DNA from: Ectocarpus siliculosus
Taxonomy: Eukaryota > Sar > Phaeophyceae > Ectocarpales > Ectocarpaceae
Reading direction: 5' to 3'
NCBI GenBank assembly: GCA_000310025.1
Contig: FN649742.1
Span: 41,052-76,652 of the forward strand
DNA length: 35,601 bases
The notes beneath the pieces are model-generated. The model was given only the letters and a program-made list of their open reading frames with translations. It was not told where the DNA came from and made no database searches. This document shows, in pieces, positions 190 through 30,800 of this stretch; the first letter of the stretch is position 1; each line of letters opens with the position of its first letter. A program made the translations under genes and the position numbers.

Positions 190-1390
190 TTGTTTCGTTT
201 GAGCACTTTTTGTCGGCTAGCCTCCTTTTCATCCTTGTGCCAGGAGGTCATGAACCTCTTAGCTTCCTGCAGTACCCCCGTATGCCACCGTACGCCCCGC
301 TCCACCGTCGCTACTCCGAATACGCATGGCTCGGCATCCGTAGATCTGTGCTTCGCCTCGAACATCTTGAGGTAGTCCTTCGGGCACATCTACCAGTTTG
401 GCTCCGGTTTCCCCCTGCCTGGGCGCTCCCCCCCCGCCAGCTCGCCAAGCATCAGCCGTTTCGGGAGCGCCCTACCCTCCTGAGGGTCTGGGCGTAGGAA
501 AGCTGCCGGTAGGTGCCCTTCTTGCGTTGGTAACCGATAACTCTCAGGAGCAGCCGGTGACGCAACGACCGCAACAGCCGGTAGTGGTCGTGACTTGGGG
601 CCCATGTCATGCAACCGTACAGCAGTGCCTCCATCGCCTCCGCCTGGAGCAGGCGAGCCTTGAGTCGGAACGGTGCTCTGGGCCTTTCGAAGAGCTCCCG
701 GCCATATCTCCTGACGCACGTCCACGCTGTTCTGCTCCGGCAATTGATCTCCCGGGTGAGGTAGCCATGTTCGTTGACGAGGCCACCTAGGTACCGGAAC
801 TCAGTCGTCCGGGCGTACCTCTGCCCTGCTGCTTCGATGATCAGTGGTGACCGCGATGGCGGCGGGGGGAGCGGTGATATTGGCCACTTTGCCTTGACGC
901 GCATCAGGAGCGGAACTCAGTCGTCTGGGCGTACCTCTGCCCTGCTGCTTCGATGATCGGTGGTGACCGCGATGGCGGCGGGGGGAGCGGTGATATTGGC
1001 CACTTTGCCTTGACGCGCATCAGGAGCGTCTCCGTCTTGTTCTCCGGTACCGTCAGCCCGAACTCCCCGAACACCTCCACGATGACGGCCATCATTCTCA
1101 CCAGTCCGTAGGCCGACCTCGATACAACGCCGGCGTCATCGGCATACAGCATCCCCCATACCGCCCTACGCACTCGGTTAAGAAGTGTCCCCGCCGGCGC
1201 TCCCGTCTCTCCGCCAGGTACACCATGTTCTGCAGAATAAAATCATCCTCGCCGAATCGAATGATAACGACCTCGAGAACCGCGGCGAAGAAGATGTTGA
1301 ACAGCAGTGGGAACAGCACGCACACTTGTTCGTAGGCCTTGTATGACCCAGAATCGGTCCGAAAACTTCGTCGTCCATGCCCACCCATGA
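190..1390 (-). mobile_element. Degenerate non-LTR (LINE-like) retrotransposon, reverse transcriptase and C-terminal part
   Basis: Read on the minus strand, the translation pieces follow the order expected for the second half of a non-LTR reverse transcriptase. First comes a thumb/palm segment with CVLFPLLFNIFF (about 1330-1290). Next is the catalytic YADD box in LYADDAGVVSRS (about 1150), followed by GLTVPENKTETLLMRV (about 1060-1020). Then comes FRYLGGLVNEHG (about 800) with the tail LLYGCMTW and LRHRLLLRVIGYQ. The C-terminal RLPKRLMLGELAGGE lies near 440, and WHTGVLQEAKRFMTSWHK ends near 220. The parts sit in different frames with stops between them, and no endonuclease domain or 5' end is visible. 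The copy is therefore dead and truncated. The clade is not assigned. One frame change is explained by the 116-bp duplication at 796-1027. Confidence 0.82.
796..1027. repeat. 116-bp tandem duplication inside the retrotransposon
   Basis: Bases 796-911 and 912-1027 are the same 116-bp unit side by side, with two mismatches that I could find by eye (one near 810/926, one near 843/959). The unit is not a multiple of three, so the duplication shifts the reverse-transcriptase frame. The protein segment around MRVKAKWPISPL appears twice as a result. The copies are nearly identical, so the event is much younger than the general decay of the element. Confidence 0.95.
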
Positions 1391-2956: not shown

Positions 2957-5021
2957 ATGCCTAGGAGCATGGTGTCATCTTCGGGAGCAGCGAGAAGTAG
3001 TAGCAAATTCACATCAAAGCGGCGTCGCGTTGTGCTTGGAATATGCCTCGTCCTGCTGCCGACGCAAGGATGTTGCTTCCATAATCTCCCGTCGAGATGC
3101 CGCTTCGAGAGCCAGCTCCGTCGTCATGTAACCAAATCAAGGTCGCGGCAGCTGCACAGCCAGGCGCAAGAGCTCGACGGTGGGGATAGCGGGTCGGTCC
3201 CTGGTGTACTCCGCGATGTTGTCATCGAGAAAATCGAGGAGCTGGGTGGCGGGAAGGTACAGCAGGTATGTCTGTGTATACATACAAAAGAGGCATACCT
3301 GTGGTCGCATCATGCGTCAAGCAAGGGCCCGTGAGACAACTTGCTGTACTGCCGGACCTGCTGTGTGTGCGATATCTTGTGCCCACGTAATCTCTCTTAC
3401 TTAAAGTGCTGTCGTTTTCAGTTGCCCTGCAGAAACATCATCTGCCACCCACGTGTGATGCACACGATCAATTGTGCATGTGTAAAGGTGCAGGAGACTA
3501 CGGCTGGACCCGGACTACACAACAGGCACTTCAAGTACACGGCTACCGGCGGGACCTTCATGGCAAAGATCGCGAAGGCGAGCCGCTCGAGTCCTCCGAC
3601 GAACGACTGGCGGGAGGCCAGTCTGGACAATTTCTTCGCCGAACAAACAGGTCTAGAGGTACGGGGAACCAAGCTTGATGGTGTGCACCTTAGCTGTACG
3701 TGCGGATTGACGACTCAGTAACGAGGGAGGCTGAACGAAACGTTCCCTTCTTCCTGCGCACCTACCGCCATCTGTGACTGGCAGGCCATCTTGGAAACGG
3801 GCTGCTTGCGTGCCCCCAAGCCTCTGGCTCTCGGGACGTTGCCCCTCGGTGGTTCTTTCCTGCTCATGGAACACATGCCCTTCATACCCTTCGGACAGTC
3901 CATTCCAGAGGTTTTGCGGAACCTCGCGGAGGGGTTGGCAGCGATGCACTTGCAAGACCCTCCTCCGTCTTGCGGAGGGTTCGGGTTTGTCGGGGACAAT
4001 TTCCTCGGGGGAACGCGTCAAGTCAACACGTGGGACTCGGACTTCTCGAACTTTTTCGTGGAGAGAAGGCTCTCGCCGCAGTTCGCGCAAGCCAGGACGA
4101 AGTTCCAGGACAGCTGGGGCACCAAGAATGAAGACTTCGAGAGAATAGGAAGGGAGGCCATCCTAACGGCCAAAAAGGTCCTCGAGCCGGTGGCAAACTC
4201 GAAGCCGGCTCTTCTGCATGGTGGTGAGTTATGAGAACCAAGGGAGCAGGACTCCATGTCGCCGCGGCATACAACAATATTCTTGTTCCCGGGGGTTGTT
4301 TCCGGACAAGCAGTGCGGTTGTTGTCTTCGCCTTTGAAGTCGTTCTGACCTTCACCCAGTACCTCCTCATCCATCTGTACGGCAAAGCAATGGATTTCCC
4401 TGGTCGCAAGGTAGCGGATACGTCGGGCAAACTGCCTGCAGCGGACAGACAGTAGTGCAGCGCTGGTGGAGGGGGTTCCGGCGCTTTGCAAGGAGGGTCC
4501 CTGCGGGACTTGTTGCCTTGGATGCTTGTGGAGGGGTGTTCAGCCATATCCCTCACCCTGTCCCTAGCGAAGCAAGACAGACGTTCCTACCCGTACTGCC
4601 CTCTCTCTTTCGGGGAACTCGTCACACTTCACAAGGAACATCCGCTGCCCCCTGTCCGCGTGGCTTGCGCGTTGCAGATCTCTGGGTGGGTAACTGCGGA
4701 GGCGTGCCGGGAGAGGGAAGACTACGAGAGGCGGCTGTTTTCGACCCCGCGGTATGGTATGGTCTACCCGAGTTCGACCTCGCCCTGGCCACGATGTTTG
4801 GCGGATTCGGGAAACCATTCTACGAGACGTACCACGCCATCATTCCCAAGGCCCCGGGGTTCGAGCGCAGGATGCGAGTTTACAAGCTTTACCATTACCT
4901 TAACCACTTGAACCTGCACGGTGCAGGGTTCGGCCACGGGGGCACGGTCGAGGACCCAAAAGGGTACTATGAGCGGAGTTTGACGTTGATGCAGGAGATC
5001 GTTCAGGACGGCTTTTTATGA
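2957..5021 (+). CDS. Fructosamine/ketosamine-3-kinase, probably plastid targeted
   Basis: Four exons: 2957-3265, 3494-3658, 3785-4223 and 4678-5021, in phase, give 418 residues. The family (fructosamine kinase, protein-kinase-like fold) phosphorylates C3 of ketosamines on glycated proteins, which then decompose, so it acts in deglycation. Visible motifs are the nucleotide-loop region AGPGLHN (about 108-114), the lysine strand FMAKIA, the helix FFAEQTGLEAI, the segment APKPLALG, the catalytic HGDLWVGN (His303, Asp305, Asn310; Asp305 is split by the last intron), the metal-binding VFDPAVWYG (Asp327) and the family signature YKLYHYLNHLNL. Residues 1-40 are basic, then hydrophobic (VVLGICLVLLP), and end in GCC before Phe41. 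This resembles the heterokont ASAFAP-type plastid signal and explains the extra length over the usual 290 or so residues. Met5 is an alternative start. The P-loop cysteine of plant homologues is not present. The family is certain; the plastid location is inferred. Confidence 0.93.
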
Positions 5022-7475: not shown

Positions 7476-10400
7476 CTACACCGTCGACGGATCTGCGCCA
7501 TAGAAACACCTGTCGCAGACCCTGCACGCTTCCAAGACGCCCACTCTCGGCAGAGGCTTGCGGTGGTCGGAGCACGGGTCGCACACCAGGAGGCCGCACA
7601 TCCGGCAATTGTGCTTGTCCCTTGCTCGCTGGGCCTTTAAAAGGGGGGAAGAAAGAGATAGGTCGAGGGTTGATAGATGTCGCATTGTTTAACAAAAGTC
7701 GGCGGTGAGGGTGTGCCAACCTAGATGGTACCAGTTAGACGATGCTGGGGTAAGCGATGGTTGGGCTGGGAACTATACAATCGAGTTTGCATGTTTTCTA
7801 CGTAAGTTAATGCACATTTGAATTGTTGAAAGAGAAGGCGGCGCCCATAGATGTTAGAGACCAAGAAAGTTGCAGCAATCGATACTCCGGCCAGCCGCAA
7901 GCACCAACAAGTACAACACTACGCGTTGTTTCGCTGACTCGCGAAAAAAAGACCAATTTCTCGAAAAAAAACTCGTGTGAAGGGTTTCTGCGTGTACTTG
8001 TATTGGTCAATTCTGCTCTTGGTGGAACCACACCTGCCGCGATCGCAATCGATGACGGTGCCCGCTTCGATCCCCGAAACTAAATCTCAACCTGGCCATG
8101 AACGCCGCAGGCAGAGGAGTCTTTGCGCGAATCCCCAGAAAACACAAGTCAATGCCAAAAACAAACCTTCCAACTTCCAACCCTGTGCCCCTGCTTCTGA
8201 CACCAAACACCCCCGTTCAAAGGCCGAAGGGAGAAGGGAGAGCTCGAGGTAAAACCCAAACAATCGTTTCTATCCGCACACTCGAGTTCAACAACAAAAA
8301 AATAACCCCCGAACTGTCTGGCCCCCCGGCCCCCCGGTGTTTGCCATCGGGGTTGGGTTTTCGTCGCTTGGCAACGACGTTGTAAAACAAGCCCCCCACT
8401 CGGTGTTCGCCATCGGGATTGGGTTTTCGTCGCTTGGCAACGACGTTGTAAAACAAGCCAATTCACTTCGTGAACTCGGCAACCAGGTTACCGTTTTTTT
8501 TTTTTACCTCGGTTTTTTTTTTTGGCGGTAACCATAATGGTGGTCGAGTAGATCATGTTGTGCGGGGTGGAGAAACCTCACTCCGCGCAACGGGGGATGA
8601 TCGCACCACGTTGTGTTAAAATGGTCAAGCTTCCTCGAGGCAGTTACACAGTGCTTACAACTGTCTCTGGAAGTGAAAGCACCAGAAAATAAATTAAGTC
8701 ATACGTAGCTGTCATCCGTACGCAAGGAAGTAAGCACAAGATGCCGAACACCCTTAGCAGGATGCAGCTCACCCTTCATGCGACTCGCCAAATACCTCAC
8801 GGCGCTTCGCGCTTGGTGATGTGAGAGCCTGGTCCGGTGAGAACCCGGCGTGCTCCGTCCCGGCTTTGTAGGGATGCGAGGTCACTGGTCAAACGACTAC
8901 GGCATGCACGACTATGAGTACACCCCCCCCCCCCCCCCCGAAATGTCTGGGCAGTTTCTCATGTCGATCTGTCTCACCTCTGACTTGGAGGTGGACGCCC
9001 ACCAAAAATCGGCCTTGCACAGCTGGGACACCTCAAACTCCGAGAACGGAACCCAGTCGGGCATGAACTCTCCCTTCGCCTCGGCTGTGCGCACCGCCGC
9101 GATTTCCTCCAGAGCGTCAAAGTACCTTTTAGGATGGATGCGGCGGAATAACAAGACCATCGCGAGGGCCAACAAAAAGGAAAGGGCGAGGAGGACGCGC
9201 GTGCGTGGAGGGTATAGAGCAGGTCTGCCTTGTTCATTCGGTAATTTTAGCGCCCGTGCCGAAGCGGGGTGGAATTCCTCGTACTTTCTGATATCCTTCC
9301 TAAAGCCAGCAAAGGGAACAGGGTATCAACTTTTTCATGGATTGGCCCAGCGCACCCCCACACATAGCCTTGCATCGTTACACAACACCGGTACGAGGCT
9401 TGTCTGTTTCTCTGCCTGCCCAAGGTACACTGGAGGAGGAGGAGGACGAGGAGGAGGACGAGAACGACGCCCCAAGACATTTTGACCTCAAGTGCCGTCT
9501 GTCTCGAGTACCCGGGCGGGGACGGAGCACACTCTGAATGCTACACAAAGCAGGCTTTTGCAAAAAGCCCATGGCCACTACAAGCAGGCGCACATCAAAC
9601 GAGTACGCGAGGGGGGCGGGGGGGGTGGTGAGCGCGGGAGAAGGTGAGGGGTAGGTTTGCCTGCAACTGCCAGCGAGGGCAATATATCACAAAAACACAT
9701 GGACACTTACGCGATGCTGGCGTGATCCGCGAGCATGTTCCCGTACATCGGGATGGTGCGGAGCGTGTCATGGTCTCTCGGGACCTCGGTAGCTCGGTAC
9801 ACGCCACGCTGGCTGCAGGATAATGGGGAGAACATAGATCCAGGGGGAGGGGTCGCTTCGTGATATTTGTGAACACTGCTGGTGCTGTTGATGCACGAGT
9901 CAGCGAGTTGATATTGCAGGAGGACGAGCGAAAACACAACGTACACCGCTGGCTGCACAATACTTGGCCGGCAATTGATGCGGAGACTGCAGTGGATCGA
10001 TCTACCGTGTAGTTGAGCGAGTGGTCGCGGAGGAAGGACGTGCCACGAGGCTTGGAGCACAGCAGTACACGCCCAAGAACCGTATGCAAACATGTCCAAT
10101 ATTCCGTTCGCTCACCTACACAACCAGAAACGACAGCCGTTACCCACGACGGTACTCATCATCGTTCGGCGGTATACCTTGAACCCTACCAACAGCCAGT
10201 ACATTACACCATAGAGCGGGGTAAAAACCATCCGCAAATCCAATCGTCTCTACATTAACACCATACAAATCGGGGTTAAAACAAATCTGCAATTCGCCTC
10301 GCCCATCGCAGAAAAAGGCCCACAGGCGCCGCCAAGTGTGTGCCCAGTCGTGCCTGTAAATGTGGACGATTCTTCCCGGGACGTACAGCTCCGGGAGCGG

Positions 10401-13400
10401 CAGCTCTTCCACCACCTCCGCCTCTTCCTCCTCTGACCCCGCGCCGCCGCCGCCGCCGACGACGACCACCGCGTCGTCACCCGAGGCACCAGCACCGTCG
10501 CCGTCTTTTCCCGGCACCAGCACGCCTGCCGGATCGCGTCCGGTTCCACAGCTACTCGGCAAGGTGTTGGTGTCGTTGTTGGAAGCGGCGGGTCGCGGGG
10601 GTACGGGAGGCGGCACGGCGGCCGAATCCGGGTCCTGCTGCTGGGCGGCGGCGGCGACGACGACGGGAGCGGTAAAAATCGACGGTTTCACTATCCTAAA
10701 GTGTTGGCGAAGCTCAAACGTGTCGGATTGATTTTTTGCCAACTGTTTTGGGGCATGGGGGGGCGAGGAAGCAGAAGGCGGCGTTGCGGCAGCCCTTCCA
10801 ATCCGACAACCAACACTGACCTTGACAATATTACTGCGAATTCTCGCACTTGTGTCGTCGACGATCCGGCTAAGGCGGCTCTGCACCGACCGAACGTCCA
10901 CCGAGGACCACCGTCCCCGTTGCCACCGACCCCCCTTGGCCTGCACCGCCTCGCCTGCATTCGTCTCCTCCCCGCTAACGGTTTCGGCGGTGACGTCTTC
11001 CTTTGCCACCACCACCTCCGTTGGCGATCCTCGTCCACCCCACTCGTCTCCACCATCGACCGGCGCGGCACCGTCTCCTGCCTCCTGCGGAGACGTCTCG
11101 TGGAGATTCGGCGACGCTGCTGCTGCTGCTGCTCCAACGCCGTCGCTTTTCACGGTGGATGCCTTTTCCTCTTCGTCGGTGTCGCCCGCGGGAACGATGG
11201 CGGTGCTATCGGTGGCACCGGAGGCTTGCTGCACCGCGGCGACCGAGGCCATTCTCCACCGGGGGGCCCACAGTCCCTTGGCGCGGCCGACGACGGCGTC
11301 CCAGTCGTTGTACAGGTGCTTCACCCAGCCCTCCTGGTGCGGGAAGGCGAGACAACAAAAGACCATCGGCCGCTCATGAGTACAGAAAGAGCACACAAAA
11401 TATATGCCCCCTGGTGGATGACGCAGCAGCAGTAGTGTTGCATCCTCATGCGCAAGGCAACGTTTTCGGTCCTATCTGTTAAAACGACGATCCACCGCTC
11501 TGCGAGAGCTGTCGTTTCCGTCCGGCCGTCTAACAGCGCGACAACGCCTACAATAACGGGCGGAGTCTCACTCGTCTATCGGCAGGTACGCAGCACATGG
11601 CTCGACCAAGCGAAGCGAGACGGCCCGCACACCCACCGCGCCCCTCCCCCTGCACCAAACCCTACTGCACCGATTTTGCCCAAGCAACGCAATCGATCGA
11701 TCCATCACCTTGGTGCACAAGAGGTCCTTGAGCAGGGCACGAACGGCGTGGGGCGTGACCCTAGGGACGACGTCGTCGTGCAGAACCACGCTCGTGCACA
11801 GGCCCTCGCACAGCCTGGACACGCCGATGTCCGCGCAGGCGGGGGTGGCGAATCCTACGACGCGGACATCGGGGATCGCCTTTTGCCAGGGAAGGCGACG
11901 GCAACCCACAAAGGACACATATGGCAAGCAAACGATCAGGAGAAATCGTATACATTGTAGATACGGGGTGGGGCGGGTTGAGGTCTCTCAAGTAGAAGTA
12001 TTGTCCTTCAGGAGCCGGTCAGGGGGAAGCGTGGGTCGTACAATAGCGTTCTAACATGCAAAAAGGACGTACCCCATCCCTAAAACATGCCAGCTGGATC
12101 TTGATCAAACCATGCTCGATTTTGACTACAATCGTCAGAGCAGGGTTTTTATCACGGCCACCTCTCAGAACGAAGGTACAGCAGTCAACACTGGCAGGAT
12201 ACATGTCTGTTTTAGTCGCTAAAAGGTCTTCTAGCATGATCCATGGATACGTTCGCTAATACTCTGCCGCGGGTGACTGCAACGACGCCTTTGAATAGTC
12301 AGAGAAGAACTCATTCACCGACAGAGCGATGAAGCTGATGCCACAGCTCAATCTGGAGGAACCCACCATGGAGTCCAGGCCTTACCCGAAAATACACACA
12401 CAAACGTGCCTATCTTGTACCAGACGAACCTATCGCAATTCTCCTCAACACGTGGAGGAATAACCTTATCCAAGAACAGAGGTGAGCTCTTGATCTGCTG
12501 AAAACACAAACACAAGGATAAACACAGGTACAGGACACATAACGGTCACGATTCCTGTGCTTACATCTTTCAGGAGGACGCCAAGAAGCGCCGCAACGCC
12601 ACCTCCAAGCGAGTGCCCGAGGATAACGATCTTGTAGTTCTCCCGGTACAGCTTGATCAGCTGGTGCCCCACCTAGTCAGGAAGACAGGCAGAGGGGAGA
12701 GGGGGGGGGGGGGGTAGGCGGATGGCAGTCAGCATTTCCAAGTCAACCTCGTTAAAAAAATGCGGTGCGGTTCGTGGTTCTCAAGGCTGCCTGCTGTGTT
12801 TTGTAAATGCATGCCGCGCGGCATCCGGGTTTCTGCCCTCCGATACACCTCCGTGAGCGAGGAAGATGCAAAACATAATGAAACGACACTGACCACAAAA
12901 GGCATAGACTTGTGGACCCACGAAGGCACTTGAGACCACTACGGAATATCCCTATGTAGTGCAACTTCGCAGTTCTGGCCGCTCCCGCTTCACGCGGAAA
13001 GACGCTTCATCTTATGTATCACGTCCTTCGATTGCACTTTACTCGAAATTCCGCATAATGAGGAGAGATAGACAGAAACGAATCCCTCACTCAGAGCGCT
13101 AATATACGTGCAGCAAGCACCATCTCGTGGTGTCTACCTCGCGGTGTAGCCACTCGGCTGCCCTTGCGATGCCGCTGCACGCCACGGTTTCGGTCGGGGG
13201 CAAGTCGCTCCACCCGTCCGCTTCTTCCGCCGCACCTGCCATCGTCGACCGCACAAGTTTCGGTTCCGTCCGGGCGTTTTCGTCACGCAACCGCACCACA
13301 CAGGGCCCTCCTTGCCCTACCACGTTATTTGCGTTTTGTCTACCCCATCGAGAAACCTGCACGCGTTACATGGCTACCGTCTCGACCCGCGCACGCACCA

Positions 13401-16400
13401 AACATGCAACTACTCGTCAGGAGCGGGTTTCCATGGCACTCGACCCACAACCAAACACAAGTATCCTCGGCATCGTTCTGCTGGTCCCCCCCCTTACCCG
13501 ATTCGGCGTCGCCCCGCGGAGAGGGAAACGGCACCGGCATCGCCTGGATGTCGGTGATGACGTCCTGGATGCTTCCCGTTCCCCTCACCACCAGCGCGGC
13601 GGTCTTGGTCGTGCCGCACGCGAGCAGCGAGAAGGCGGGCTGGTGGAACCGAGAGTCGGGCTTGTGGAACACCAGCGACCAGCCCGTGTTGTTGCAGAGG
13701 ACCTGTTGTCCGCGTGGTTGAAGCAACAACGAGTGAGGAAAGCAAGCGAATCATGCTGTCTCAGACGAGCCTCTTGAGAGATTTTGAGATCGTGGCGCTG
13801 ACCGCGAAGCGTCCACAACAAGCGTCGAGAACAGCAACAGCAACGGGGGGGTAAACACACCAAGGTTTCTGAGAGCCCTTGCCCGTATCGGTGCGAACGT
13901 AAACCAAAGAAAGTAAATACAACAAACGCAACAAACCGAAAACCATACTTTGAAACAAACGTGCCGCATACCACAGTTGGCGGGCCGTATATTCCTAGGC
14001 ATTTCTAGATAAGCTTCTACTGCTGTTCAACATACCTGAAGTTCGAGCGCCGTCTTGGTGTAGGCGAAGTGGAGGGGAAGAGCAGACATCCTGCCGAGCA
14101 CAGAACAAGCCGTAGAGAGACCCATGTGAGGAGTTTGTTTTTCATAATGACACAACATACAGAAGACTTCCAATCCACCACCACAGCGCGGCTGTCGAGA
14201 ACTGGGTAGGACAAGCAGAGAACGGCTACTGAAGGTTGCCTTTGCCATTACCGGCAAGCGGTGCCATGCGAAACGACAAGGACAAGGTTCGCCGACAACA
14301 GTATCAAGGCAAAACAACCTCAGACAAATCATTTTTGGGGGCCATTGGCGATTGACGAGAATGAACTAACACAGTTTACAAGCGAACCGCAAGAGGATCA
14401 TGCATAGGGATACAACCTTGCGGACGCTTGACTACCGCGAGAATACGAGGATGCACCGAGCAACGCACGCCGGAGTCGAAGGAGGACAAGACAAACTTAA
14501 CAGAACTCCGGCCCCTACAACCGCGCCCCCCTCGGCTACTATTATAACACACATCTACCTTCGGGGTTCACGTACCCCAAAATAACGCGGCAATCGCGAC
14601 GTGCTGCTGCGGTCGGGCCGACAACGCTCACCTGCGGAGGAACGCCAGCTCGGTGTCGGAGATGGCCTCGCAGTCGGCATGCGCCTCGTGTTCGCCGTTG
14701 GGCGCGGAGCCCCTCTCACCCCGCCGCTGGGCGAGGAGGTAGTACATGGCGGCGGTCATCTCGTGCACGCTCATCGGCCACTTCCTGGGATAGCAGCGAC
14801 AAAAGAGGCAAGGCAAGAGGGTGTATGTTTGCATACGGGGCCTTCGTAAGGCTACAGAAGCATCTTGGCGAGCGAGCGTGGCATGCCTCTGTTTTGGCGG
14901 GAGTACCAAATTTTCCTGTTACGCCGCACAAGAGGGTGTTGTTGTTGTTGTTGTTGTTGTTGTCGTTGTTGTTGTCTTCACATTACAAGAGAGTGTGACC
15001 TGGAAAAATGCCCAAGGCGTCTGTGCCGGATGTGACCAGGCGCATGAGCAAGCAGACGACACATCACGAACATTCCGTTCAGGGCTGCACGCAGAAGAGA
15101 TAAAAACATGAAAATACCACTTCTTTTTTCGGTCTTTCCCTCGATGAATTTTCGTAAGTCTACTGCTCTCACTTGTCGACGCCCGAGAGGCGCTTGAGCA
15201 CTTCCACCGCCTCTACGAACTCCCGACGGAGAACCAAGCCCGCCACACCCGCCGTGCCGTACTTCATTAGCACGTCCATCACCTCCACCGACACCTGCAT
15301 GGTGATGGTCGCGACATGAACGCACGAAAACAAATGCAAACGAATGTAGCGATGATATCGTCCGTGCGAGTCTTCGGCCACGCCCGTTGTCGGGCCGACG
15401 TGTAAACAACCATAGCACCGTTTTTGGGAATCGCGAGGTTTTCAGGGCAGGGAACGCTTTCTCTCCCACCCAGCCGATGCGGGCGTACTCTTTGCTAAGT
15501 TCCTACCCGACAGTCAAGGGTGTGAGGGAGGTGTTGGGTCGTGCACACGCACCAGGCTTCAACAGAAAACAACCACTTTTAACAGGATATTTCTCCTGGC
15601 TAACCCGGCGTTGCCTCTCAAACCTCACTAGTTAGGTAGACAGAAATTAAAACTACCTTGACGGCCGTGCCCAGCGGTGCCGACTTGGCCACGTAAATAG
15701 CGCCGTCCACCACTCGAAGAGCCTTGTCGCCCACGGTGTCCTGCCCGACCGCGAAACGCGCCGCAAAACCGTGAGCAAGAAGGGGGTCCCGTGGGAACGA
15801 AGAGCAAGGGTACGGACGTGGCGTTATTGCCGCGGCGGAATTCCAGCCACATACACATGTGATGAAAGTAACGGTTGCTCCTGTACAAGGCCTACATAGC
15901 AATGTCACTACTGTTGGTGCCCGTTTAGAATGTGGAGAATATTCCTACCAGTGGGAGAGGGGTTTGGTGCGTGTGTGTGCTGTTGCAATATAGCGTTTGG
16001 TCGGCTTGGATCGGTGACGGCATCGCACGCAGCCCCTGGCGGAGGATCCTCTTGACAGCAAATTTGTCTATTTAGGCTCGAGGGCGTTGTCCCAGCGGAA
16101 AATGAGGACGAGAAACGCTGTTCTACGCGTGTGCGGCTTGTAGAAGTACGTACGCCGCTGCAGCACAAGAGGCATGTAATTGCATGGGAACCCAACGGAG
16201 GCATACTTTCCAATGCTGAGGCATCAACACTGACCCCCAAAACGGGCGTGCACAAGCTCCTGTGACAAAAACAATCATGCCTCCACAACTCACCACTCCT
16301 GTGTCGAAGTACGATATGAGACGGTTCTCGAGGAAGGCGTTCACACGCTCAAGTCTCCACTCGACGCGCTCTCGCCAGTCCTCCAGCTCGAGGGTGTGCT

Positions 16401-19400
16401 TGCAAGGGGTGCATACGCGCTGAGGGCGCAAGACAAACAAAAAAAGGGGCACGGCAAACGTACACTAGTGGGTGTGCGAGGAGGCGCTGGAACAACCACA
16501 ATGCTGAACGGGCTCGCTGCTTTGAATGATGATGGCACAACAACCGCCAGCCAAACCCCCAACAACATCCTTCAAATGCAGGAGAAGCTAAAACCTCCTC
16601 GGGGAAAAGTGCACGTATCTATGCCCCGGGGTACACGGCGCAAGTCCCTACTCTACACAAAAAGCACACCGAGGCGCGCCCATCAAAAGGCGCGCGCCAG
16701 CTATTAATAGCAGAGCCGACGACATAGCCTGCTTCTGCAGAGTAATCGAGCTTTGAAAAATCGGTCAATGTGGGAGGGGAGTGTTATCTTACGCAACCTA
16801 ACGTTCCACACCTGCGGGGCGGGTAGCCCTAGCTTGGGTATGGGGTGCTCGTGCCACGCGTGTTCGTGGCAGAAAGACCCGCCGCAGTGTCGGCAGTGGT
16901 GCCGGTACCGGGTCACCCCGAAGTCCTCCCCGCACTCCCGGCACTTGGGCTTCATCTCGAATCGGGGCGGCGAGAACAGCTGCGCAAGGTGGAACTGGGC
17001 CTCCTCGTCCCCCTGCCCGGCCTCCCGCCTGAGCCACTCCAGGAGAAGGTCCTGCGACGAGACCGTGCCAGGGGTGCTCCCGTCAGCAGCAGCCTCGCCC
17101 GTAGCGGCCTCTTTCGCGCCTTCGACCCTCTCCTTGACGAGGAAAGCGGCGGTCACGCTATCCGGCTTCGTTGGCACCGGCGGGGGTGTCGCAGAGGCTG
17201 GGTTAGGAGCCTGGCAGGCCCCCCCCGCGGGTACCGCGTCTCCCGGTTGTTGAACGCCGTCGAGAGCGGTCGCGTGCGCCTGGGCGAGGAGAGGTGTCGA
17301 CGCCGACAAATCTCCTCCGCTGGTCGGCTCGTCGACTCGTGCCGCCTCGGGCACCCCGCCCGGGAGACTCGCTCCGCCCAGCTCCTCGTAGGTCTCCATG
17401 AACTCCCGCATCGACGCCGTGTCCGCAGCAGGCGCGACGGCAAACTCGTCCGCGCCAACGCCCCCTCCCCCGTCCTCGCCGGATTCCCACGACTCGCACA
17501 GGCCGTCGAGCGGCCCGCCCCCCGGTCTCAACCTGGGCGGCGACGGGCTGTCCCTCTGGCCGCTGCTGACGCCACTGTCGCCGCCGGCGCCGGCGCCTGG
17601 GAACGGCGGCCGGCCGGAAACCATGGCGTGGATGGGGTCCATGGAGTTGCACTCGTCTTCGAAAATCGGGGCGGTGACCCATGGGTCGAGGTCCTGGTGA
17701 GGGGAGGTTTCCGTGAACATGACGCGGTAGGAGGAACCGTGGCGAGTGGTGGGATACGTGCCCACTGGCGACAAGATCGACAACAAGCTACGCCAACTGG
17801 GGACTCCCAGCGTGGTGCGCCCCGCACTCGTTTGATTTGGGTATGCACACAGGGCCGAGATCGAGTACAGAAACTGCGGAGATGGGGCAGCTCTAGAACG
17901 AAAGCGTGGTGCGTACTTCCATCCTCGTGCAGGATTTCTAAACGTCTGTCTTCCCAACTTCAGGGAATGTACAAGGGCATTTCACTCGCAACGGCTAGCT
18001 GCCGCGTCCGTCCTTTACCCTGGTTCTTCGTAGTCCAACACAAGAACCTACAGACACGACTATTAACTGTTCGTTCCAATAGTCACCCCTTGCCTTAAGC
18101 GTTGCCATCACCGATGCGTCGGCTGGTCTTGCTCTGACGCCGAACCCGAACCCGCCATCGCCGCCGCCGCTGTCACCGTGGAGTCGTGCCGATGGTGACA
18201 GGATGGGATCGCCGCTATCGCTTCCCTCTACGACTCCTTGCTTCTCCCCCTTCTCCTGCTCTTCATCTCTCTTCAAGGGCCCTTCCAAGGTGTCGCCGCT
18301 TCTGGAGTTTTCCACGAGCTGCCGATCGTACCAAGAGAGCGAACAGAACCTGTCGCGCCACGCGCGGGCCAAGTCAAAAGCCGAAGAAGGGGGAGGATGC
18401 AAACAGCACGTCTGCGAGCGCCGCAACACGAACGCAACGTACGTATTCATGACCACCAACAAGGACCCGAGGCGTTCTCTTTTGTATTGAACCAGCTCTC
18501 CCCAATACTTCTGCCGGTCAAAAACACTCTCCCCGATACGATACAACAATCGGCCGCAAAGACGCCACGTGCTCCTGCGACACGCCACATCGGCGGTTTT
18601 GTCGGCTTCGTTGCCACCAACACCACCCCGGAAGTACCGCACTGCAACATGCAACCGAAACAAGCTCAAAACCCTTCTCTCCCACCGTGTGTTGAGAGCA
18701 ACCTTACCTAGCGCCCACGCCCGACCAGTCCACCTTGGCGTTGTCCACCTGCCCCGGTGGGGCTTCCCCCCTACGGTGCTGCGAATGCATCTTGTCCACG
18801 TAACGCTTGGCGTGGCCGGCGGTAAACCTAGATAATGTCAACAGGATCAGGGGCAAGGGAGGTACCTCAATGGGGGTAAAGGTTGAGAAGAGACTGCCAT
18901 GTACCAGCGCTGGACCAAAATTCCGAGCCAGTGCACTAGGCCTCATACACCTGCAGGAAGAAGAATTTTACATGACGGCGCGGCGTGTGAGAAAACGTAT
19001 TGTGCATAAATACATGTGCCGGCCGCCGGTGGCAAGGTCGGAAATCGAGACATAGTCATGTGGTGTGTCCCTTGAGTACATACGGTGCGGGATGGCATGG
19101 CCGTACCATATACTCGAGGGACGGACGCACCTTATGGCTGTTGTATCGAATTCGACTTTGGCGCAGACGGTTATCTCATGTAGGCATGAAAAAAAGCCCC
19201 TCGCACACAGTACCCTCGCTATCTAAGATACTGCTTCCTGCACGCCCTGCCATGGGAGCTTCACCGCTTTATCCCGTCCGGACATGCTGAGCGGACACCT
19301 CTTGGTAGAAAGCCTCAAGCAGCTGCCCAAGAAAAGACGCCAGCGCTGTTTCTTTCGCCTTGTCATCTACGCGGCCACTTACTCTCTCACCTCGCCGCCT

Positions 19401-19671
19401 CCTGAGACGCCATCGCCGCGTACGACAAATACGGCTGCGACGCCTTGTGAGCGCGTGTCGCAAAGCGTCCCAGCGTGGGGACCAGAGCGGACAGCCGCCC
19501 GGACCCTTGCTCGTCGTTTTCAAGGCCAGTTCCAGCTTCCGACGCCGTGACATCGTCACTTGCTTCCGCTAGCTCGCCGGCAGCAGTCGCAAGGGCTTCT
19601 GTGTCTGGCGTCGATTCCAATTCCACCGCCGTGTTGGCATCATCTTCGACAGGACCGGTTTTCGAATCCAT
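7476..19671 (-). CDS. FYVE - class-3 lipase - FYVE protein (diacylglycerol-lipase-like), 18 exons
   Basis: Exons, 5' to 3' on minus: 19671-19391, 18827-18708, 18526-18443, 18349-18112, 17693-16812, 16419-16294, 15740-15657, 15294-15173, 14784-14632, 14090-14036, 13702-13498, 13235-13138, 12672-12565, 11879-11709, 11333-10267, 9812-9711, 9125-8978, 7634-7476. All phases agree and give about 1,400 residues. FYVE 1 (about 490-550) shows CRECGEDF, YRHHCRHCG and RVCTPC, the last completed by exon 6. The class-3 lipase (about 700-1300) shows HQPAF, the VVRGTGS oxyanion strand, GHSLGGG (nucleophile Ser837), HDDVVPR (Asp about 888) and LYVPGRIVHIY (His about 1233). FYVE 2 (about 1320-1395) shows WVPFSEFEVSQLC, HNCRMCG, VCDPCS and CRVCDRC. 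The family hydrolyses acylglycerols; FYVE fingers bind PI3P, so an endosomal or vacuolar membrane site is inferred. About 300 low-complexity acidic, Ala/Gly/Pro-rich residues separate the catalytic Asp from His. An in-frame upstream ATG at 19803 exists. The end of exon 4 (18112) and the borders of exon 3 are the least certain. Confidence 0.88.
8336..8459. repeat. 66-bp tandem repeat, about two copies
   Basis: The segment beginning GGTGTTTGCCATCGGGGTTG at 8336 repeats from 8402 with a period of 66 bp and only a few substitutions. The second copy ends near 8459. It lies in the last intron of the lipase gene (7635-8977). Each unit includes the inverted pair CGTCGCTTGGCAACGACG, which can fold into a short hairpin. 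Confidence 0.9.
8551..8602 (+). other. Strong hairpin with G-U wobble pairs, possible structured RNA
   Basis: Bases 8557-8570 pair with 8578-8591 to form a 14-bp stem around a 7-nt loop. An outer GATCAT/ATGATC stem (8551-8556 with 8597-8602) follows after a 5-nt G bulge. Three of the pairs are G-U in plus-strand RNA but would be A-C mismatches in the minus-strand transcript. Any RNA function would therefore be in the antisense direction to the surrounding lipase gene. This is a by-eye fold with no homology support. Confidence 0.3.
8923..8939. repeat. C homopolymer run in the last lipase intron
   Basis: Seventeen C residues lie about 39 bases after the donor site of lipase exon 17, so they appear as a G run in the pre-mRNA. 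The length is likely variable and error-prone. Confidence 0.9.
14938..14976. repeat. GTT trinucleotide microsatellite
   Basis: A (GTT)n tract with one C interruption lies in the lipase intron between exons 8 and 9 (14785-15172). It reads as (AAC)n in the transcript. No coding role. Confidence 0.9.
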
Positions 19672-24800: not shown

Positions 24801-27800
24801 TTACGCCGCTCCACAGCGGGAAGAGCGGGCTGTCGTGCACCACGTCCATCGGGCCGGCGCAGTACATGCGCGAGGAGATGCTCACGCCGTCCCCGCCGCC
24901 CAACTGGGGACAGCACTTCGCGACAACGACCGAGCGCGAGCCGGGAGAAATGGAGTTCAAAGACGAGGTAAATACCAACTGGTGAACACGTACCTTTCAC
25001 CACACACACACACACAAAAAAGGGTGTTCGATGATGCTGCATGCGAGCATCGGAAGGACGGTGGTGGTGATCAGACGCCTCTTGTTGGGTTGTTTTTTGT
25101 TGAATGGGCCGGTGTTCCATCGACCGTTCACGTTCTACTCCGTACCAGGTTGCAAGCAACCTTTGCAGGCTTTTCGCGCTCGCGAACAGCTGCTTGCCGT
25201 GTGCATACACACCCTCAAGGAATATTTTTTCTCCCTTACTTGTACTTGAGGTTATTTTTGTTCCTTAGGCTGTGTAGGCCGCCGCCCGGCTGTGCGAGGG
25301 ATGTATCGCAGTGGCTGCGAGTGTGAGGGGGCACTCGCTCGCCAAATGCCCTCCTTGGCACGGGTGTTTTCGTGTTCTCGTACCGGTTGGCCTGACGGAG
25401 CTCGTGGGAGGGACAAGCCGTATCGTTTTGTTTTGTTGTGCCAGAAACAGCGCTTCAAATATGCTGCTTCGTTTCTGTATTCCGGTACATTTCTGCCGTG
25501 GACTACATTGCTGTGCAGTAGATGAAGCTCCCCGGCTTTACGCCAATGCAGAAAGAATCTCAACACACAATGCTCGGATGTCGGTGGCTAAGCTACGGTA
25601 CTGGTCCTGGCGATGGATCTTACGTCGTCTCCAACAGTCCCCCATACCCGATGCTGTCCGATGCCGCGATCTTTCCAAGCAAGGTAGACCGGCCGCAAGC
25701 ACCAAAAGTAAGACATCATCCGCGAATAAATTGTGATGGCCAAGGCTCCACTCGCGCAACCAACATGGTTTCCTGATGTACATGCGAACTCGCCCGTAAT
25801 ATTCTTTCCGTCCGTCCATCGCTGCAAACAAAACGAATGGAAAACTTTGACTTTTTAGGAGGAGCGCGCTCGGGCTGCCATGACTGATCGGGAGGCTGAC
25901 TTGGAGCTGGGCGATAGTGGCTGGTGCGAGGTTCGCAAGACGCGTTACATCAACTACATCACGGTGACCTTGACGCACGTGCTCATCTTCCTCGTGCTGG
26001 GTACCCGAGGGTACACCATCGTTCGCGACACGCTGAGCGACGGGTGAGATACAGTGGAGATTAAGGGTTTGGTTGCGATGCGTTTTGTTCGATGCGTACT
26101 TGTTCTCTTTTCTCTCTCTCGGTCTCTTTCTTTCTCTCCTTCATGTTTTGTGGTGTGTTGCGGAGGGCGTGGTAGCTCGTCTCGTCTCGCAGGCTCTTCG
26201 CGATTTTGTCAACGGAGAGGGTGGAGTGTCGTACTCGCGTGTGTATGTGTGTGATTGATTGCCATCGACCGCGCCAACCTCCTGACCAATCAAAAGACGT
26301 CGGTGTCAGCGGGTGCAAATCAATCGATGTCCCTGGAAGAGGGCCGAAATTGTAAGGCGGGCTTCGTCCATGATGTCACTGAAATCTCCTTGTGTGTTTG
26401 TATCTTCACGTTTAGCGTCGCTACCTGAGTGAGTATTGAAGAGGCGTCAGTATGTGTGTGTGTGTATGTGTTTTGTTGTATGGGCGGGCGGGCACTCACG
26501 AGCCCTGGCTTATGCAAGAGCGAGTAATTGTTGTTGACCTTGGCAGCGTCTCCGGGGGACTAGAATAGACGAGACATGCACAAGGGATTTCCGCACCAAG
26601 CTATTGCCCTTTGCCCCCTTCCCTCGCAACCCACACATTACGTCGCCGCTCTTCTCCCTCCCCCGCCGTCCTGTTTCGGTGTTTTTGTCGCATCCCTCTC
26701 GCAGGTACTACCTTCGATGCGTGGCGTTTTTGTACTATCTTCCAGCCTACGTTTTCATGCTCTTCAGCATCGACTACCTCCTAGCACAGGTGAGCTGCAG
26801 ATAAACCGTTTGCATTGCTGTAGTAGCCCTTGCAGCCCCGGCAGTTTGTCCGCTCCATGAAGGCTATTGGCAAGAGAGGGGGGTAGGGAGACTTCAGCAG
26901 AGGGCGCCAGTTGGTAGCTTTGGGCGTGAATATATCACCACCAGGAGACCGTGGTGGATTGTGCGAAATCGTTTTGATGGATGGCGTCGTTGCCTGGCGG
27001 ACGTCCTCGTTTTTGTTCCACACAAGGACCCTATTCTTGCTTTCATGGAGTGTTCTTGTGGACAAATCCGGTCTCAACCTGCGTGCCATCAATCGCGTCC
27101 AACAGCCCACCCTGCAGCTCGTTAGCGTTGATCGTCTCCACCGCCCGCCACGCTTTCCCCGCTCTCGTCATTATTTCGCCTGTCGCTGTGCGCCGAGAAC
27201 AGTTCATCTACGCGCTAGGACCGATCGCCCACATGCAGGAGAACTCCAAGTACTTCAGCAGCAAGCCTTGCCCCCGGCCGGCGGTGATGCCTAGAGTAAC
27301 CATACAGATGCCGGTGAGCAAAGGGCGAGCGACGCAGACACAAATGAGAGGCCGTCACGCAAGAAGAAACACAAGCTTTTTCCTGCTGTACGCATGTTTC
27401 GTCTAATATGGGTAGAGATGAGACGAGATTGGTGTGCTGTCCTTTCGTAAGAAAACAAAGGCAAGAGAACGTGTTGGTGCCACACACCACAACGCAACGA
27501 GCTTGATTCACCGAGACATAACGAACGCACATCGAAAAGTCTCACGTGAACATGCAAACAGCAGCTTTGCAGTTTCTACGCATTGGCTGTTAGTTGCTCC
27601 CATTTGGACTCTTGTGTGCCTGGCAAAATTATTTTGAAAAGGGAAATAGACACAAGTGGGTATACCCACACCTTTCTCGGACAAAAGTGGGTACTCGAAA
27701 ATCCAGCGCGCGCGCACTCCATAGGCGACCCCCAAACGACTCAAAACCCCATTCTGACACCTGGGCGACACAGCCAGGGACCATACACAGCACGGCATCG

Positions 27801-30800
27801 ATTTTTTCCCACTTTTAGGCACACCTTTGGCCCTAATACCGCCGACGCGCGCAAGGCCTCACCAGAGTGCCCACTTATGTCCGACATCGCGGTGGGTATA
27901 CCCACCGGCGTCAACTAATTTTTTCATGTACCCACTTGTGTCTGTATTTTGACCCACTTTTGTCCAAATTGTACCCACTTTTGTCCACTTACGGACGGCG
28001 AAAATCGAGCGGAAATCGACCTCCACGTCACCGCACGGCAGAACATCGAATAGCCTCGGAACATCTCAGAACCTCCCAACACCGTATCCATGGCATCTTT
28101 CCTATCCATGGCTGCCGACTGCGGACCGACTACGGAGGAACATGTCAGAAACATGCCAGACCCCTTCGGTACCGACCGGCACGGGAAGATACCCGCGGTA
28201 AGCCCGGCAAGCAGCGCACTAACGGCACGCCACAATGCGTGACACACAACGGACAACACAACCAACGGGTCGCGCATACAGAACAAAAGACGCGCAAACA
28301 GCAACAACACACACCAAAACACCAGCCACCACGACGAGTGCACACCGACTCGTCACGGCGACAGTAGGCTTGCCGCGGGTATCTTCCCGTGCCGGTACCG
28401 AAGGGGTCTGGCATGTTTCTGACATGTTCCTCCGTGGTCGGTCCGCAGTCGGCAGCCATGGATAGGAAAGATGCCATGGATACGGTGTTGGGAGGTTCTG
28501 AGACGTTCCGAGGCTATTCGATGTTCTGCCGTGCGGTGACGTGGAGGTCGATTTCCGCTCGATTTTCGCCGTCCGTAAGTGGACAAAAGTGGGTACAATT
28601 TGGACAAAAGTGGGTCAAAATACAGACACAAGTGGGTACATGAAAAAATTAGTTGACGCCGGTGGGTATACCCACCGCGATGTCGGACATAAGTGGGCAC
28701 TCTGGTGAGGCCTTGCGCGCGTCGGCGGTATTAGGGCCAAAGGTGTGCCTAAAAGTGGGAAAAAATCGATGCCGTGCTGTGTATGGTCCCTGGCTGTGTC
28801 GCCCAGGTGTCAGAATGGGGTTTTGAGTCGTTTGGGGGTCGCCTATGGAGTGCGCGCGCGCTGGATTTTCGAGTACCCACTTTTGTCCGAGAAAGGGGTG
28901 GGTATACCCACTTGTGTCTATTTCCCTTTTCAAAATTACAATATCACACCCTCGAAACAGCGCCCGTTTGCGCCATGCCTCCTCGCTCAGACTCAACATA
29001 TCCTGCCCCCCCCCCTTCTAAACACGTCAACAGGTGTACAAGGAGAATCTCGTGGAGACCATCCTGCCGTCCATCCAGTCCGTCATGACTGCCGTGCTGC
29101 ACTACAAGAAGATGGGGGGGGAGGCGAACCTCTACATCAACGACGATGGCTTGCAGGTAACAAAACACGCTACGGCAAGTATCTCGAACCACACGATAGC
29201 GGATTCACGATGCGATGCGATGCGATTTGTGCAGCAAGCACCCTGGTCCGGTATGATGGGCTCTGGCACTAAGAACCGTCGGCGGACGAGGATACCTGTT
29301 CGCAGGTCTATTCGAGGCTATCTTATCTTTACGGTTGCGTTTCTGGCCAGTGTGTACAATACAATACATGGATGCGACCTCTCAAGAAGCAGTCGGAGTT
29401 AAAGCAAATGCCTGGAAGAACAAAGGGGGGCATGGCATGGCAGTCTGGGGCGATGTTGAGCCACGGAGCGGCGGCTCAGCAAAATTTCATGATGGTTTTG
29501 TTGCGCGAACGAATCGCACTGCTGTGAAGACACTCATGTTGCCTTGCTGCTGCTGCTGCTGCTTCCGCCTCTCTTCGACCTGCTCCTTCCCGCCGCCGCC
29601 GCCGCCGCCATTTCCCGTGCGGGAACCGAATTTAACCGAGGAAAGGTCATCTCGGAGAAGGAGCGCAACGCACGGGTGTTCGCCTACAAGAGGCACGGCG
29701 TGTCGTACGTGGCGAGGCCGCCGGCGTCCATCCGCCCCCGGAAGGGCCTGTTCAAGAAGGCCTCCAACCTCAACTACGGGCTGAACGTGGCCATCAGGGT
29801 GGAGGAGATCATGGCGGAGTCTGGCGGCCAGGTCACGGACCCTGTCGAGGTGGGTCGGGCGCAGTAGCCTTGGCAGTGCTTTTCTATTAACTGAACGTGT
29901 TGGATGAAGCATGCAATCGGGGAAGTTAAGTTGCGTTACAGGGGGTTAAGGGTTGGGTTTGGGATGTAGGGTCTGCATCCCCCCTCCCTGCTCTATTTCC
30001 TCATGAAATTGTTCTGTTTCTCTCGAAGGCGCTTCGTCGGGCGACATATGGCTACGGCCGCAGCCAGGCTTGTTTTTTTATAGGTGTAGAGTTGGACATG
30101 AGGGTGTGAGATCGAGGTCTATACGGTAGAGGGGTGGGTCACGGGTGTGGTAGAGGTGCAGCATGGTGAAGGCGACGGCAATGGCGACTGTAGACAGACA
30201 AGTTCTTGGAGCTGGTCTCCGTCAGTACTTGGTAGACAAGGGCGTGTAAGAGGAGAGTGGTACATCACATCACAAGAGCGTGTTGACTGCCTGTCCAAAA
30301 GGTAGCCGGATGAGTTCTTTGTGATGCACGTTGGTTACTGGCGTAGCGGTGTTTGTTGTCGATTAACCAAGCATGCCTCGAAGACTTGGGATCGTTGAGG
30401 GCGCGAAGCATGGTCGTGCTGTAGTCTTGGAGTGAAACCGAACGTCGGCGTTTGTTCTTGTTCTTTTTGTGCCGTGTGGGAGTGTGCTGGATGGAGTGCG
30501 CACCCGCGACGATGTTCCTCGGAAGTCCTTCGTCCACCCCACGTTTGTTGACTTGTGTTCTGAGGCAAAGACACGAATACAAGCCCTTTCCTTTGGCGTA
30601 ATTTCAGCGCCATGTTGACGTATGTTGCCGATACACCCGTGGTACTTCACGGTTCCGAAGAGTGCTTTGCGGTAACTTTTTTTACCTGACGTTTCTTTCT
30701 TCAAAACAACAAACAACGTTGGACGGTCGCGCGTAACGCAGGCTCTTCAGCTGGTGAGCGGGGAGTTTAACGATGAGTTCTTCGCGGGGGGCGATGTGCG

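Follow-up and report, generated by a model that had tools for sequence, protein, structure and literature searches.

A predicted class-3 lipase between two unequal FYVE-type fingers in the brown alga Ectocarpus siliculosus

Introduction

The DNA studied here is a stretch of 35,601 nucleotides of the Ectocarpus siliculosus genome (contig FN649742.1, positions 41,052 to 76,652, assembly GCA_000310025.1), referred to below as the window, and the question that it raises is whether one gene on its minus strand encodes a lipase that is addressed to particular membranes by zinc fingers of its own. A preliminary description had read, from the letters of the sequence, two fingers of the FYVE type, known for binding phosphatidylinositol 3-phosphate (PI3P), on either side of a class-3 lipase core. 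Here we find the same domains in the same order, in a gene whose start ATG is at 19671 and whose stop is at 7476, the limits described before, and Pfam agrees both in the unspliced frames and in the spliced protein. The reading that we favour, and to which we assign a probability of about one in two, is that this is one nuclear gene for a soluble class-3 lipase, which the N-terminal finger would keep on PI3P membranes and which would hydrolyse glycerolipid there.

Results

Each domain can be recognised before any splicing. The minus-strand frame at 16707-17981 matches the Pfam FYVE family (3.6e-8, 33.8 bits against a cut-off of 27.8), that at 12469-12672 contains the GHSLGG piece of Lipase_3 (8e-7, 29.5 bits, cut-off 22), that at 11571-11987 holds a second Lipase_3 piece which at 20.4 bits (5.2e-4) lies under the cut-off of 22, and that at 7479-7688 gives another FYVE match (1.6e-9, 38.1 bits, cut-off 27.8, profile positions 22-63 of 67). 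A model assembled manually from three-frame printouts of the minus strand joins these pieces through 17 GT-AG exons; the coding sequence, stop codon included, is 4,302 bases long and translates into 1,433 residues without an internal stop. After splicing, the protein matches FYVE over two stretches (6.1e-22) and Lipase_3 (PF01764) over residues 804-947 (1.2e-17, profile positions 2-137 of 140), the latter with 68.7 bits against a curated cut-off of 22. The introns measure 178-685 bases, with the exception of the last at 1,343, and third-position G+C is 77% in the model, as against 53% overall in the introns. The exons are as follows.

Exon 1, 19391-19671, minus strand: opens with the ATG at 19671 and has no recognised domain; +17.0 bits in the leave-one-out codon score.
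Exon 2, 18708-18827, minus strand: codon score +16.2 bits; acceptor uncertain, 18770 scoring higher.
Exon 3, 18052-18349, minus strand: +9.8 bits, the lowest per codon; both boundaries uncertain.
Exon 4, 16812-17873, minus strand: linker, PPPVPTKP, Sel1-like stretch and zinc ligands one to six of the N-terminal FYVE finger (unspliced frame 3.6e-8); a start at 17693 is possible by boundary ranking.
Exon 5, 16294-16419, minus strand: RVCTPC end of the N-terminal finger, placed by the gain in FYVE score on joining exons 4 and 5.
Exon 6, 15657-15740, minus strand: between N-terminal finger and lipase; +17.7 bits; junctions 5/6 and 6/7 top-ranked jointly; the best single donor, 15629, differs from the model's.
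Exon 7, 15173-15294, minus strand: segment before the lipase; +16.1 bits; junctions 6/7 and 7/8 top-ranked.
Exon 8, 14632-14784, minus strand: segment before the lipase; +26.6 bits; junctions 7/8 and 8/9 top-ranked.
Exon 9, 14036-14090, minus strand: short, before the lipase; +2.8 bits; junctions 8/9 and 9/10 top-ranked.
Exon 10, 13498-13702, minus strand: start of the Lipase_3 core (LVVRGTGS..DVITD); Pfam match from residue 804; phmmer match to 4jei.
Exon 11, 13138-13235, minus strand: Lipase_3 core; +15.5 bits.
Exon 12, 12565-12672, minus strand: GHSLGG elbow with Ser889 at 12612-12610; Lipase_3 8e-7 in the unspliced frame.
Exon 13, 11709-11879, minus strand: GFATPAC and HDDVVPR, with Asp939 or Asp940 at 11777-11772; Lipase_3 5.2e-4 in the unspliced frame, the spliced match reaching profile position 137 of 140.
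Exon 14, 10324-11333, minus strand: low-complexity insert, PPPVPPRP, and VPGRIVH at residue 1279; +81.9 bits; weak donor.
Exon 15, 9711-9812, minus strand: NMLADHA with the candidate catalytic His1328 at 9724-9722; +9.8 bits.
Exon 16, 8978-9125, minus strand: part of the C-terminal finger, with the WxxD-position Trp at residue 1356, a single Cys, the Phe and the extended loop FWWASTSKSE.
Exon 17, 7476-7634, minus strand: DKHNCRMCG..CDPC..RVCDRC, the last six zinc ligands of the C-terminal finger, and the stop; FYVE 1.6e-9 in the unspliced frame.

The preliminary description had counted 18 exons, one more than the present model needs. The sole phase-neutral addition spotted by eye, an 11-residue candidate exon at 12497-12465, has no coding signal (codon score -1.2 bits) and leaves the Lipase_3 score at 68.9 bits with it and 68.7 without; it was left out of the model without being excluded.

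Codon use supports the exons. When each was scored with codon statistics from which it had itself been left out, all 17 were positive, with the chosen frame above both other frames. As a control, 346 overlapping stop-free windows of 99 bases from the introns gave a median of -0.38 bits per codon, a 90% mark of -0.10 and a highest value of +0.22; every exon of the model exceeds the 90% mark. Among the splice sites, G stands at +5 in 13 of the 16 donors as against 27% of the 870 GTs on the same strand of the region. With donor and acceptor scored jointly within 200 bases, the choice made in the model ranks first at 12 of the 16 junctions; at 1/2, 2/3, 3/4 and 4/5 another choice does, and at 3/4 that of the model is outside the six best shown. 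The boundaries of exons 1-4 are ambiguous and the N-terminal extent of the protein is uncertain.

Phase was then left out of the choice of sites. The best sites within 60 bases proved compatible at 12 of 16 junctions (one third expected, P 8e-4) and those within 100 bases at ten of 16 (P 0.016), and these phase-blind picks equalled the model at both sites for eight and six junctions, respectively. The phase compatibility attributed to the exons in the preliminary description was borne out for most junctions and failed at 3/4, 6/7, 12/13 and 14/15 (60 bases). Since the frames and boundaries had been picked beforehand, and the splice matrices were trained on the model's own boundaries, the splice and codon statistics are supportive rather than independent proof.

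The N-terminal finger is the more orthodox of the two. Joining exons 4 and 5 raises its FYVE score from 33.8 to 53.5 bits (cut-off 27.8). An alternative acceptor for exon 5 at 16398 has the higher codon and splice score, yet it removes RVCTPCK and 11.6 FYVE bits (41.9 bits, compared with 53.5 for the acceptor at 16419); with 16419 the R(V/I)C motif is present as RVCTPC. The finger matches the Vps27 FYVE chain at 2.1e-13, and its seven cysteines and one histidine make eight likely zinc ligands, arranged in four pairs with Vps27-like spacing. Vps27 has a histidine in the equivalent position, which we take to be a zinc binder in both. In PMC3017826 (papers are cited here by accession, and for those parts of their text that were available) the FYVE zinc ligands are given as eight cysteines, and by that strict rule the finger has seven of eight. 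The R(R/K)HHCR motif appears as YRHHCR, matching at five of six positions with Tyr for the first Arg. WxxD is absent, the Pfam match beginning at profile position 8 with no Trp upstream at the usual place. Directly before the finger lies a Sel1-like stretch (residue 509 on, from 17048 downward on the minus strand), for which the whole-sequence E value is 2.2e-7 to 4bwr and 2.2e-4 to 6ok3, with no single stretch passing 0.1. The tethering of the lipase to PI3P membranes proposed earlier is a reasonable suggestion for this finger, given its Vps27-like ligands, HHCR and RVC, and is weakened by the loss of WxxD and of the first basic residue.

The lipase core contains RGTGS, GHSLGG with Ser889, and HDDVVPR with Asp939 or Asp940, all within the Pfam match and with 50 residues from Ser to Asp. 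The best candidate for the third catalytic residue is His1328, which follows the Asp by 389 residues, a gap that is due to the low-complexity insert (276 residues by the model boundaries). The best single donor for exon 15, at 9747, would remove this histidine; when donor and acceptor are scored together the donor of the model comes first, at 34.8 versus 31.3 for 9747. Of the intact Ser-Asp-His set described earlier, Ser and Asp lie in the Pfam match, and His1328 may complete the triad from outside it.

Among solved structures the core is closest to Lipase 2 (4jei, 1.9e-9), followed by the triacylglycerol lipase 3o0d (3.8e-9); all further matches are no better than 0.0014, among them 5xk2, a chain that bears the name diacylglycerol lipase (0.0019), and PAD4 (0.23). 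The PHROGs collection yielded one match to the lipase, the esterase/lipase phrog_21992 (1.7e-4). In Thermomyces lipase about 57 residues lie between Asp and His. Animal diacylglycerol (DAG) lipases have a regulatory loop in the same region, thought to gate the active site, and then a PPGRIIH-like segment, which the VPGRIVH that precedes the candidate His presumably resembles. The core had been called diacylglycerol-lipase-like: the solved relatives support its place among class-3 lipases, 5xk2 included, and the likeness to the animal type depends on sequence features that we take to be as just described. The eight most hydrophobic 19-residue windows of the protein include seven over the region of the lipase nucleophile, the eighth being at residue 1173; no separate membrane-spanning segment is evident because these seven cover the lipase core, and nothing in these eight windows corresponds to the four N-terminal transmembrane segments of an animal-type DAG lipase.

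Each of the two long linkers has one polyproline motif, PPPVPTKP at residue 463 (17186-17163, minus strand) and PPPVPPRP at residue 1202 (10613-10590, minus strand), both of which we presume to fit SH3-type ligands. The pattern PPPVPx[KR]P, picked after it had been seen, was not matched in 2,000 shuffles of the protein, and the count of the general PxxPx[KR] pattern (2, with 0.65 expected) is unremarkable.

The C-terminal finger is FYVE-like by profile and not a canonical PI3P finger by its residues. Joining exons 16 and 17, over which it is split, raises the score from 38.1 to 43.1 bits (cut-off 27.8) and extends the match from profile positions 22-63 to 2-63; for exon 17, phmmer gives the FYVE structures 1z2q (4e-8) and 1vfy (7.7e-8), with a query that had two mistyped leading residues. 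The best alignment reads S-x2-C-x3-F, ten extra residues, DKHNCRMCG, CDPC and RVCDRC, and so keeps seven of the eight zinc ligands, with Ser for the first Cys. The Trp of WxxD is kept and its Asp lost, the second His of HHCR is Asn (DKHNCR), and RVC is kept. A missing mini-exon with a canonical first half of this finger was sought in the three minus-strand frames of the last intron, where the three C..C matches, one of them holding a stop, are not FYVE-like by eye. The two fingers are identical at 15 of 40 aligned positions and are not near-identical duplicates.

The residues lost from the C-terminal finger bear on its ligand. PMC3017826, in the text available, implicates the Asp of WxxD and the second His in PI3P selectivity, and it also describes plant FYVE variants with HNCY for HHCR that may interact with other phosphoinositides. 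With these two residues and the first Cys missing, binding of PI3P by the C-terminal finger is doubtful. The bridging of PI3P membranes by the two fingers, as first proposed, is a weak possibility, which the degenerate state of the C-terminal finger does not favour.

Discussion

How, then, might the protein work? According to the reading that we favour, the product of the gene is a soluble lipase of class 3 (alpha/beta-hydrolase), some 1,350-1,430 residues long. Its Vps27-like N-terminal finger would hold the enzyme at PI3P membranes, whether endosomal, vacuolar or autophagic, where the lipase would cut glycerolipid. The C-terminal finger probably serves as a weaker accessory contact, since the residues named for selective PI3P binding are missing, and may add a weak or different interaction with a second membrane, a dimer partner or a protein. 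Lying between Asp and His, the long insert could act as a gate to the active site, in the way proposed for the regulatory loop in animal DAG lipases. That the protein is catalytic, what it cuts and that its N-terminal finger binds PI3P are predictions.

Several observations pull the other way. Six of the 17 exons (1, 3, 5, 9, 12 and 17) score per codon under the best intron window (+0.22); the junctions incompatible in the phase-blind test include 6/7 and 14/15, which connect the lipase with the fingers; and the last intron is long. To these must be added the training of the splice matrices on the model itself, the Tyr and the absent WxxD of the N-terminal finger, the position of His1328 outside the Pfam match with no homologue among solved structures, its dependence on the exon 15 donor, and the lack of a relative with the same domain order in the collections searched (viral sequences, genome contigs, plasmids and phages). 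Three other readings have to be weighed; they overlap, and their probabilities need not sum to one.

The strongest of these, which we consider rather unlikely but well worth keeping in mind, accepts the architecture and takes the fingers to be structural or protein-binding modules instead of PI3P sensors. Neither copy has a complete WxxD; the N-terminal copy has Tyr in R(R/K)HHCR, the C-terminal copy has DKHNCR and a Ser in place of the first Cys, and the plant variants with HNCY, together with the naming of the WxxD Asp and second His as selectivity residues (PMC3017826), point in the same direction. Set against this are the eight likely ligands, HHCR and RVC of the N-terminal copy, and a precedent from oomycetes. 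The available text of PMC8233823 counts 272 FYVE proteins in Phytophthora sojae and describes one whose two FYVE domains are both irregular, RVC being absent from one, and WxxD together with an Arg of the PI3P motif from the other; this protein requires its FYVE and PX domains for signal at vesicle-like structures.

Less likely still is that two or three adjacent genes on the same strand, for a FYVE protein, a lipase and a small zinc-finger protein, have been fused wrongly by the model. The frame of exon 14 is open past the chosen donor and ends at 10140, a possible alternative end; junction 14/15 ranks first when scored jointly, but like 6/7 it is incompatible when phase is ignored; and the last intron is by far the longest. 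The remaining gaps between exons, by contrast, are all of 178-685 bases, and the phase-blind picks within 60 bases agree in phase at junctions 5/6, 7/8, 13/14, 15/16 (there with a donor other than that of the model) and 16/17. Two features of the domains themselves speak against separate genes: a lipase requires a His downstream of its Asp, for which the best candidate is in exon 15, and the C-terminal finger is divided between exons 16 and 17. A single transcript across both fingers and the lipase is suggested by the splice and codon statistics, short of proof.

Finally, a lipase-fold scaffold that does not catalyse, like the lipase-like plant proteins PAD4 and EDS1, which are not known to have lipase activity, would fit the distant candidate His, 389 residues past the Asp, and the presence of PAD4 among the weak relatives (0.23), but is improbable given the intact RGTGS, GHSLGG and Asp motif and a Lipase_3 match that covers profile positions 2-137 of 140.

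The favoured reading, a lipase addressed by its N-terminal finger, can be extended, in what we regard as a long shot, to a two-point membrane clamp. The N-terminal finger would read PI3P; the C-terminal finger, with its long Trp-rich loop (FWW) and changed selectivity residues, would insert into or read another lipid, either in the membrane that carries the PI3P or in a second one; the lipase would be held between them; and PPPVPTKP and PPPVPPRP would recruit one SH3-type partner that opens the enzyme. If the locus does encode one protein, a PI3P address and the cutting of glycerolipid would be wired together, linking endosomal or autophagic identity directly to lipid turnover, and a single gene would give access to that link. 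The inequality of the fingers also provides a testable case in which one FYVE module keeps, and the other loses, the residues for PI3P selectivity.

Relatives and other features of the window

The collections searched for relatives do not contain eukaryotic genomes, and the lack of relatives therefore means little; the search patterns were also narrow. In viral contigs (IMG/VR) the lipase pattern matched 30 stretches and the C-terminal finger pattern nine, with no relative in either case, while the FYVE alignment matched 85 stretches with two relatives, and 159 stretches with two relatives in genome contigs. When the model was compared by tblastn with these four FYVE loci (E limits of 10 for the viral loci L001 and L002, and 1 for the genome-contig loci), E was below 0.01 only over finger regions, and weaker matches ranged from 0.066 to 9.8, one of them over the lipase (L003, 0.93). 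The match in L004 is probably due to chance in an Arg-rich frame. By tblastn the lipase found no match in plasmids and none in phages, and the N-terminal FYVE and lipase pieces had no match in NCBIfam up to 0.01. Among the matches listed in the open-licence literature, judged by title and the start of the abstract, there was no FYVE-lipase-FYVE protein, nor is there one in the available parts of PMC8163842, PMC3019232, PMC6841712 and PMC3001460.

The loci themselves have features of their own. The two IMG/VR contigs (L001, 9878-11851; L002, 9941-11860) carry open frames, 658 and 640 codons long, in which a FYVE finger lies close to the start and the tail, judged by eye, resembles that of a phosphatidylinositol kinase. 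In Pseudomonas gingeri (L003, 7343-10411) a frame of 1,023 codons ends in two FYVE-like fingers, preceded by a metallopeptidase-like HEIGHQLGMPH motif; a FYVE pair in a bacterium struck us as unusual.

Elsewhere in the window the following were noted, and Rfam and tRNA searches of its whole length gave no match.

795-1028: tandem duplication of 116 bases, overlapping the next feature.
907-1242, minus strand: reverse-transcriptase remnant (RVT_1 9.8e-5, 22.6 bits, under the cut-off of 29.6).
3722-5018, plus strand: Fructosamine kinase exons (5.3e-18 and 1.1e-26).
27631-28174 and 28393-28936: inverted repeat whose 544-base arms are 99% complementary and stand 218 bases apart; it lies upstream of plus-strand exons of glycosyltransferase-2 type and may be a mobile element, foldback or palindromic, of recent origin.
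31475-31948, plus strand: segment of Glycosyltransferase family 2 (1.2e-14).

Comparison with known systems

The N-terminal finger resembles the FYVE fingers of Vps27, Hrs and LM5-1 (1vfy, 3zyq, 1z2q) in spacing, in HHCRxCGGxFCxEH and in RVC..C, and differs in having no WxxD and Tyr as the first basic residue; those fingers sit on sorting proteins, whereas this one is on an enzyme. The C-terminal finger is closer to the plant class V variants of PMC3017826, as described in the text available, in that HN replaces HH and the WxxD Asp is missing. It departs from them in having HNCR instead of HNCY, in keeping RVC, in the Ser for the first Cys and in the ten-residue insert after the conserved Phe.

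With the solved class-3 lipases the core shares RGTxSxxDVITDI and GHSLGG, which are common to 4jei, 3o0d and the present protein. The chains of Lipase 2 (4jei), of the triacylglycerol lipases 3o0d and 4tgl and of the diacylglycerol lipase 5xk2 have 269-301 residues, whereas here the gap between Asp and His alone is 389, and fingers stand on both sides of the core. A class-3 core is also found in animal DAG lipases (DAGLA and DAGLB), and, if exons 14 and 15 are joined, the insert between Asp and His may correspond to theirs; none of them is known to have a FYVE finger. DAGLB has four transmembrane segments and a loop inside its class-3 catalytic domain according to the accessible text of PMC9205912, whereas no transmembrane segments are evident in the protein described here.

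The same two domain families do occur together elsewhere: the available part of PMC9324892 describes proteins, labelled archaeal, in which 'lipase (class 3)' accompanies FYVE, a likeness that we can draw by domain names and not by accession, order or number of fingers, and the archaeal label may reflect contamination. In the part of PMC2837644 that was available, a table lists Abhydrolase_3 and Lipase_GDSL in what is presumed to be its FYVE column.

Fingers on enzymes are otherwise well represented. PIKfyve/Fab1 and MTMR3/4 have one FYVE finger each, and in FYVE-Rheb the finger is fused to a GTPase (PMC5869587, in the text available). All resemble the present protein in having a PI3P-type finger on an enzyme as a membrane address, and differ from it in that the enzyme is a kinase, a phosphatase or a GTPase. 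The fusion of FYVE to an enzyme is an established theme, within which a lipase between two FYVE fingers, as predicted here, would be an unusual arrangement of familiar parts.

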